Of a stretch of 64,000 nucleotides of DNA, positions 51,512-53,016 are shown in pieces. The notes under the pieces are model-generated. The model made no database searches. It was not told the DNA's origin and worked only from the letters and a program-made list of their open reading frames with translations. The stretch's first letter is position 1; each line of letters starts with the position of its first letter. This DNA is from Bacteroidota bacterium (lineage in GTDB: Bacteria > Bacteroidota > Bacteroidia > Palsa-948): the NCBI GenBank assembly GCA_016195025.1, contig JACQAL010000018.1:1-64000 (forward strand). Reading direction: 5' to 3'. The translations under genes and the position numbers were made by a program.

Positions 51512-52234
51512 ATGCCTGACGAATCAAGAATTCCGCGTAATTTGGGTGAGTATGTACGGTATATGACTCGCACCACCCATTTTTTGAATGCCCCTTCGCT
51601 CACTTCCTTCAAGGGAAAGAACTGGGAACGATTTAACTGGGAAGAAACAGAACGCGCACAATGGGAATCATTCGCCAAAACGGCTGACGAATGGTTTAAA
51701 CTCTATTCCAATCCGGCAGTCCGCACCACCGCGGTGAAGAATATGCTCGTTGATGTGCAGCGCGACACGGTGAAATACAACCAACAGCAAAAACTGCTTG
51801 ACCGCATTGCTTCCAATCCCAACCGAACCGTTACTTCCGATTTTTCTTTGTTCCGCATAAAGCGCGGAAGCCCGCTTGAAAAAATCAAGCGCACCGTGCA
51901 CACCGCATCAATAGACGAAGCGCCTATGGTGGCGTTAAAAGGACAGGGCGGTGGCGCCATAAAAGTTTTCTGCCGAACGGTTACAGGCACCGGGCGCGGG
52001 CACCGGCATAAACTTTCAAACAGCGTGCTCATTGCATACGCGATAGGAAGAACTCCTCCCGCGAGCGTGGATGCCTGCACCCTGAAGCACATCAGCACAC
52101 GCGCAAAGTTTTTTCTCCGGCTCGACTATAAAGAACGGGGAAACCGCATTTATCTTTTCGCGCGGTGGTACAATACCAAACATCCTGAACTGGCAGGACC
52201 CTGGAGCGAAATGCATCAATCGGTAATATACTGA
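51512..52234 (+). CDS. Conserved hypothetical protein (240 aa)
   Basis: A 240-residue soluble protein. The N-terminal half is helical (PRNLGEYVRYMTRTTHFLN, NWEETERAQWESFAKTADEW, NPAVRTTAVKNMLVDVQ). The C-terminal half is beta-rich (IKVFCRTVTGTGRGHR, TRAKFFLRLDYKERGNRIYLFARWYN) and ends GPWSEMHQSVIY. The ending resembles fibronectin-III-like tails of a family of uncharacterised proteins in environmental Bacteroidota that share the PxxR-IPRN start. It has no signal peptide or sorting domain. The paired palindromes upstream suggest regulated expression. It converges on the tRNA-like RNA, whose predicted end lies 3 nt from this stop. Confidence 0.6.
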   Translation: MPDESRIPRNLGEYVRYMTRTTHFLNAPSLTSFKGKNWERFNWEETERAQWESFAKTADEWFKLYSNPAVRTTAVKNMLVDVQRDTVKYNQQQKLLDRIASNPNRTVTSDFSLFRIKRGSPLEKIKRTVHTASIDEAPMVALKGQGGGAIKVFCRTVTGTGRGHRHKLSNSVLIAYAIGRTPPASVDACTLKHISTRAKFFLRLDYKERGNRIYLFARWYNTKHPELAGPWSEMHQSVIY

Positions 52235-52237
52235 TTG

Positions 52238-52406
52238 CTGTAGGGGAAGGGTTCGAACCTCCACGAGGAGATTAGCCGCAGCACAAAGAAGAGTGGTCAA
52301 CCCTGGTCATCCCGATAAAATACAGGGACGGCTCTATGCTGTGTTTGTTTCTTTTTCCTCACCCCCGAGACAAGAGGGCATGTCTGCCTTGTTTCATCAC
52401 CCCACA
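52238..52406 (-). ncRNA. tRNA-like RNA with a 99-nt variable region
   Basis: On the minus strand 169 nt fold as a class II tRNA. Acceptor: TGTGGGG (52406-52400) with CCCTACA (52245-52239), seven pairs including one G-U, then discriminator G. D arm: ATG/CAT with a 12-nt GG-containing loop. Anticodon-like arm: CCCTC/GGGGG around TTGTCTC (GTC in the anticodon position, U at 37). T arm: GGAGG-TTCGAAC-CCTTC. A 99-nt segment replaces the variable arm. It is closed by GAGGA/TCCTC, with AGCCG/CGGCT and CCCTG/CAGGG inside, and CAGCA/TGCTG, which would cross as a pseudoknot. No CCA is encoded. It has its own -7 box upstream. It could be a decayed tRNA-Leu with an insertion, or a functional tRNA-like RNA. 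Confidence 0.6.
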
Positions 52407-52428: not shown

Positions 52429-52436
52429 CAAAAGTA
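52429..52436 (-). promoter_or_regulatory. -7 promoter box for the tRNA-like RNA
   Basis: TACTTTTG on the minus strand, 22 nt before the predicted mature 5' end at 52406. This leaves a short leader that RNase P could remove. Confidence 0.5.
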
Positions 52437-52536: not shown

Positions 52537-53016
52537 ATGAAAGAACAAAAAGAAAATTACCAGATTGACAATGTGGACAGGAAAATAATTTCCTTCCTGA
52601 TGAAAGATGCCATGATGCCGTACACCGAAATCGGTCATCGCGTTCTCATGTCAAGCGGAACCATTCATGTGCGCATGAATAATCTTCAGAAAGAAGGAAT
52701 CGTGAAAGGAACTTCGCTGGTTTTGGATTACGCGAAACTTGGCTATGACCTCACCGCGTTTGTTGGTGTGTATCTTCAGAAAGGTTCCATCTACGATAAA
52801 GTAATCAAGCGGCTGGAAAAAATTCCCGAAGTGGTAGAAGCGCATTACACCACGGGCGTGTACAGCATCTTTATGAAAATTGTTTGTCGGAACACCGAAC
52901 ACCTGCGCGAAGTGCTGAATGAAAAAGTTCAGTCGGTAGAAGGAATTGACAGAACGGAAACAATTATTTCGCTGGAAGAAAGTATTAAAAGAGATGTGGA
53001 ATTAACCAAAGAGTAA
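52537..53016 (+). CDS. Lrp/AsnC-family transcriptional regulator
   Basis: A 159-residue regulator. The N-terminal winged helix (about 8-60) has NVDRKIISFLMKDAMMPYTEIGHRV and SSGTIHVRMNNLQKEGIVKG. The C-terminal RAM/AsnC domain (about 68-150) has LTAFVGVYLQKGS, KRLEKIPEVVEAHYTTGVYSIFMKIVCRN and VEGIDRTETIISLEES, which normally binds an amino acid and builds octamers. Targets and effector are unknown; its own promoter region has symmetrical AT-rich sites. It converges on radA with a 15-bp overlap. The tRNA-like RNA is transcribed divergently from this gene. Confidence 0.92.
   Translation: MKEQKENYQIDNVDRKIISFLMKDAMMPYTEIGHRVLMSSGTIHVRMNNLQKEGIVKGTSLVLDYAKLGYDLTAFVGVYLQKGSIYDKVIKRLEKIPEVVEAHYTTGVYSIFMKIVCRNTEHLREVLNEKVQSVEGIDRTETIISLEESIKRDVELTKE

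Follow-up and report, generated by a model that had tools for sequence, protein, structure and literature searches.

To our knowledge, tRNA-dependent amidation is known solely on tRNAs that are later used by the ribosome. Staphylococci possess dedicated tRNA-Gly genes whose products, of normal architecture, work off the ribosome and donate to peptidoglycan. In bacteria, C38 is a determinant of AspRS. The published aspartate identity consists of G34, U35, C36, G73, and G2-C71, and G1-C72 contributes to it (PMC9976931). For the amidation of Asp-tRNA, U1-A72 is the specifying pair and G1-C72 and U20a act as blocks, and the tRNAs concerned go on to translation (PMC9976931); U1-A72 is recognized by bacterial GatCAB (PMC4206432). 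Genera of the Bacteroidetes have been reported in which AsnRS, GlnRS, and GatCAB occur without an asparagine synthetase (PMC4206432).

In the window (the whole stretch of 64,000 nucleotides that was analyzed), positions 52406 to 52238 of the minus strand form a complete class II cloverleaf of 169 nt, with its 5' end at 52406, discriminator G73 at 52238, and no encoded CCA. The outer tRNA elements listed in the original prediction were all recovered where it had placed them: a 7-bp acceptor (UGUGGGG, 52400 to 52406, and CCCUACA, 52239 to 52245), of which U1, G2, C71, and A72 are invariant in the family described below, and, as placed by alignment, a D arm (52380 to 52397; AUG/CAU stem and GGCAG loop, without nucleotide 20a), a 5-bp anticodon arm (52362 to 52378; CCCUC, loop UUGUCUC, and GGGGG), and a T arm (52246 to 52262; GGAGG, loop UUCGAAC, and CCUUC). 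The anticodon GUC (52369 to 52371) is followed by U37 and C38. The variable region indeed measures 99 nt (52263 to 52361) and contains an outer helix of GAGG (52357 to 52360) and CCUC (52265 to 52268), internal-loop strands AACAAA (52344 to 52349) and CUAA (52272 to 52275), and the element GGGUUGACCAC (52293 to 52303). A −7 promoter box, TACTTTTG (52429 to 52436, minus strand), of the Bacteroidota type TAnnTTTG lies 22 nt upstream of the RNA. The two neighbors were also as described: an AsnC/Lrp-family regulator (52537 to 53016, plus strand) is divergent from the RNA, and a convergent open reading frame (51512 to 52234, plus strand; 240 amino acids, no Pfam match) has its stop 3 nt from the RNA 3' end.

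ARAGORN made no call at 52238 to 52406. Rfam at a permissive threshold returned chance matches only at the window RNA, with no match to the tRNA model RF00005 either, and its homologues were likewise without a match, so that the RNA stood outside known families, as had been suspected. With intron search, ARAGORN called just two homologues, reading them as tRNA-Gln(ttg) or tRNA-Asp(gtc) with an intron (L002, 1501 to 1662; L008, 1501 to 1619); since members are misread in this way, automatic annotation may hide the family. The single-sequence fold of the window RNA was weak (z = −1.24, little better than shuffles), and the structure therefore needed a comparative test.

A DNA search of 60 relatives returned homologues that belong to other families within the class; none came from the six same-genus genomes. 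In a first alignment of ten homologues, 99.6% of cells were paired and ten pairs were changed on both sides. A covariance model (R1), which scored the window RNA at 119.6 bits (E = 3.1e-29), found the RNA in 67 of 395 Bacteroidia genomes. Its matches fell into two score classes, the family at about 75 to 135 bits (107 to 204 nt) and ordinary tRNA-Leu-sized tRNAs at 60 bits or less (around 82 nt); the sole intermediate score, 67.8 bits, belonged to a decayed copy in genome G063. A phylum-level search added one more family outside the class (two genomes, three tandem copies each), and a pattern scan of named genomes gave at least 120 stretches, from Cytophagales, Chitinophagales, Saprospirales, and some Flavobacteriales. 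Tandem copies were frequent, with up to five at one locus (L044). No earlier description of the RNA was found in the set of papers searched. The family is widespread in Bacteroidota and was previously uncatalogued.

Covarying homologues had been set beforehand as a test, and they were found. In set A4 (91 distinct rows, collected without anticodon constraint), 98.7% of cells were paired and 20 of the 24 core pairs showed double compensatory changes. None of 500 shuffles reached the observed covariation, and slid versions also stayed far below it. Comparative covariation across many families thus settles the reality of the structure despite the weak single fold.

Elaboration of the variable arm was family-wide (37 to 133 nt), which disposes of the suggestion that the window RNA is a one-off tRNA with an insertion. 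Inside this region, the 4-bp outer helix (compensatory change in 3 of 4 pairs) is joined by a second helix of 3 bp, all of whose pairs form in 170 of 236 members, and by a conserved RANAAA/CUAA internal loop (CUAA in 218 of 236), which we take to resemble the UAA/GAN motif. The pseudoknot considered possible in the original prediction was not confirmed; what is conserved is the second helix, the internal loop, and an element confined to the long forms, GGGUUGACCAC (97 of 252 members). Some members have an extra D-loop hairpin besides the variable-arm insert (L009, 1397 to 1528; L253; L260; L261). With class II tRNA-Leu the RNA shares the D arm and overall body, in line with the second rank of tRNA-Leu-sized tRNAs under R1, but it has G73 rather than A73, an aspartate anticodon, a non-decoding loop, and a far larger variable region. 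tRNA-like modules are also common to bacterial Y RNA (YrlA) and tmRNA, whereas the present RNA mostly occurs without a Ro60/Rsr partner, has no tag frame, and keeps a complete anticodon arm. Identification as tmRNA was rejected, as neither an Rfam match nor an ARAGORN tmRNA call was obtained, in agreement with the tag frame having been reported absent. A Y RNA reading, raised by the resemblance of GGUUGACC to the Ro-binding strand, was rejected as well: of 13 RNA-bearing genomes searched, only 3 had the Rsr/Ro60 (TROVE) partner, which the window genome lacks, and short forms of the RNA are without the motif.

We then compared the RNA with the determinants listed above. U1-A72, G2-C71, and G73 were each present in 88 of 88 sequences gathered without anticodon constraint; acceptor pairs 4-69 to 7-66 vary. 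Because the pattern used for L013 to L148 imposed GUC and C38, conservation of these nucleotides was counted from the unconstrained set alone. The anticodon loop was mostly YUGUCUC, with U35, C36, and C38 near-invariant and few exceptions at G34. The RNA thus carries the aspartate set (G34, U35, C36, C38, G73, and G2-C71), has U1-A72 in 88 of 88 sequences in place of the tRNA-Asp antideterminant G1-C72, and bears the marks of a GatCAB substrate, U1-A72 and the absence of U20a. As read from its nucleotides, it joins the aspartate-charging set to the amidation set. GUC had been read correctly in the original prediction and had been treated as an oddity there, which it is not, as it belongs to the AspRS identity set. 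Since G1-C72 is part of aspartate identity, AspRS must tolerate U1-A72 on the RNA, as ND-AspRS does on tRNA-Asn.

The RNA shares with bacterial tRNA-Asp the GUC anticodon, C38, G2-C71, and G73, but differs in U1-A72 (G1-C72 in the canonical tRNA-Asp of these bacteria), the lack of 20a, pyrimidine 37, an optional U33, and a giant variable arm. With the tRNA-Asn of the indirect pathway (AspRS/GatCAB, transamidosome) it has in common U1-A72, G73, G34, U35, and, as we propose, aspartylation followed by amidation; it departs from that tRNA in its GUC rather than GUU anticodon, non-decoding loop, class II body, variable region of 37 to 133 nt, and linkage to an AsnC-type regulator. Having GUC rather than GUU, the RNA could be charged by a tRNA-Asp-specific AspRS.

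Normal decoding had been doubted on account of U37, and the family bears this out: position 37 was U in 181 of 189 members and a pyrimidine in 186, and position 33 was U, G, or C (36 of the 189 having G or C). Position 33 is U and position 37 a purine in all 38 tRNAs of the window genome, and only tRNA-Gln among them carries U1-A72. The RNA therefore has the cloverleaf arms of a decoding tRNA without its combination of U33 and purine 37. We regard an unusual decoding tRNA-Asp, reading GAC and GAU, as highly improbable. The GUC anticodon, G73, the intact L-shape elements, and a window assembly without canonical tRNA-Asp would suit it; more than 95% pyrimidine 37, G or C for U33 in many members, a variable arm of up to 133 nt, U1-A72 and never G1-C72, and a canonical tRNA-Asp in every one of the 16 other genomes examined, 12 of which are RNA positive, speak against it. 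An Asp/Asn hybrid RNA that decoded would put asparagine at aspartate codons, a plausible reason for its exclusion from translation.

Among the 38 tRNA genes of the window genome (G000; stated completeness, 100%), those for Asp (GUC), Asn (GUU), and Ile (GAU) are missing, probably owing to an assembly gap. Replacement of tRNA-Asp by the RNA in its own genome was rejected in view of the canonical gene in 16 of 16 others.

A TAnnTTTG box was present within 60 nt upstream of 82 of 218 copies (expected, 7), and 103 of 134 loci had a terminator-like hairpin no more than 90 nt downstream (control stretches, 17). These signals suggest that the RNA forms its own transcription unit and is transcribed in vivo.

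The only recurrent neighbor of the RNA was the Lrp/AsnC regulator, which adjoined it in divergent orientation in 73 of 166 loci. For the window regulator, the best NCBIfam model was AsnC (NF008384), at 172 bits and thus below the cut-off of 227. About half of the loci, among them many of Cyclobacteriaceae and those of all phages, had no adjacent regulator, and in many loci it was elsewhere in the genome. A regulator orthologue (≥155 bits) was found in 65 of 67 RNA-positive and 24 of 328 RNA-negative genomes; the same-genus genomes had neither RNA nor regulator. In 8 of 20 loci of genomes with the regulator and without the RNA, the divergent gene was, by sequence, asnB (L321, L322, L325, L326, and L331) or archaeal-type asnA (L315, L320, and L323). 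HMM checks on three of these gave 326 bits for L315 (cut-off, 309), and 941 for L321 and 658 for L326 (cut-off for both, 499); the PDB relative was 3p8t. As the regulator-divergent slot often holds a synthetase in RNA-negative relatives that have the regulator, the RNA occupies the place of an asparagine synthetase. Some genomes, G008 among others, have the regulator with neither RNA nor known synthetase. A TrmB-like (tRNA m7G46 methyltransferase) gene lay about 200 nt away in 15 loci of Chitinophaga type (e.g., L033 and L047); a link of the RNA to TrmB was set aside, as it looks lineage specific.

Co-occurrence with GatB and AsnB was surveyed in 247 genomes, 43 RNA positive and 204 RNA negative. 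GatB was present in 43 of 43 RNA-positive and 143 of 204 RNA-negative genomes (P = 2e-6 by Fisher test, phylogeny ignored); of the GatCAB subunits, this search covered GatB. AsnB above the cut-off was found in 0 of 43 and 29 of 204 genomes, respectively (P = 0.004, phylogeny likewise ignored), and AsnB-family paralogues of 200 to 280 bits in 6 of the 43. For RNA-positive genomes the enzyme survey covered GatB, AsnB, and E. coli-type AsnA. E. coli-type AsnA was rare (14 of 282 genomes). Contrasts within families are better evidence than these P values. The single AsnA-positive genome with the RNA, G189, has G34 changed to C in it, and its AsnA-positive congener G063 has just a 76-nt copy without the variable arm and without G34. 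In family f40, tested RNA-positive members were without asnA and asnB, and three members with asnA and/or asnB (G045, G147, and G255) have kept the regulator and lost the RNA. At the corresponding loci (L318, L317, and L319), a short conserved stretch divergent from the regulator consists of GGTTTATAATTGGTTAG and then a terminator hairpin. Beside the regulator of two AsnB-positive genomes, G131 (L316) and G167 (L330), there are remnant-like tRNA pieces with acceptor and T arm and no normal anticodon arm. GatB was also found in 70% of RNA-negative genomes, most of which are without asnA, asnB, and the RNA; other routes to asparagine must therefore exist.

The linked, divergent AsnC-type regulator, the tandem copies, and a conserved internal loop and long variable arm that could bind protein would all fit a regulatory or sensing RNA, one that reports Asp/Asn charging or titrates AspRS, GatCAB, or AsnC and carries no flux. 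We consider this unlikely. It leaves unexplained why the RNA stands in the place of a synthetase and why it decays in genomes that have asnA or asnB, as well as the strict presence of GatB, and a titrating RNA needs no joint charging and amidation determinants. The regulatory role suggested in the original prediction is thus not the best reading: the AspRS set, the amidotransferase determinant U1-A72, and the AsnC-type regulator together point to asparagine synthesis.

Sixteen viral contigs bear the RNA; DNA searches of phage and plasmid records gave no real match to it. At least four types of tailed-phage neighborhood were seen by eye in L134, L135, L139, L137, L136, L143, and L147, with PhoH-like, primase, DnaB-like, and terminase-like genes. 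Phage copies retain U1-A72, GUC, and G73, and in L147 (2461 to 2604) the RNA sits within a phage tRNA cluster, in the order Cys, Phe, Lys, Trp, Arg, the RNA, and Leu. The variety of phage neighborhoods and the copy inside a tRNA cluster might suggest a phage-spread tRNA decoy against anticodon nucleases or another defense. There is very little chance of this, as the RNA is mostly chromosomal, regulator linked, and synthetase exclusive, and a decoy requires neither U1-A72 nor a conserved variable-arm motif. The RNA and the staphylococcal tRNA-Gly would both be metabolic tRNAs withdrawn from the ribosome, the proposed product of the RNA being an amino acid. By analogy with that non-proteinogenic tRNA, the RNA could instead be a dedicated Asp or Asn donor to an acceptor other than the ribosome (cell wall, lipid, or peptide product), which would need the same charging determinants and non-decoding features. 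We think such a donor quite improbable, given that no recurrent transferase family adjoins the RNA, its recurrent neighbor being the AsnC-type regulator, and that phage copies come without transferase genes.

We put at roughly 70% the probability that the RNA serves AspRS and GatCAB as a non-decoding, tRNA-like carrier for the synthesis of asparagine. AspRS would charge it with aspartate by way of the GUC anticodon, C38, G2-C71, and G73, and GatCAB would turn Asp-RNA into Asn-RNA, because the RNA has U1-A72 and lacks the tRNA-Asp antideterminants G1-C72 and U20a. Pyrimidine 37, the free position 33, and the very large variable arm would keep it out of decoding. Asparagine would then be released, by spontaneous or assisted deacylation, or handed on; if free asparagine is what is needed, AsnRS must be present. 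The divergent AsnC-type regulator may control the RNA, as AsnC does asparagine synthetase elsewhere, and so adjust supply.

We lean toward the broader view that the role of a metabolic enzyme has passed to a non-coding RNA, such that much of Bacteroidota would make asparagine on a purpose-built carrier. This carrier would unite charging and amidation identities, be kept off the ribosome and under the control of AsnC, and also be borne by phages as an RNA-type metabolic gene. If true, a carrier that makes an amino acid outside translation would found a new functional class of RNA, and it would offer a natural case of recombined tRNA identity rules and a phage-borne metabolic RNA. It would also be a possible source of asparagine for those Bacteroidota in which AsnRS and GatCAB are present and a synthetase is missing (PMC4206432).
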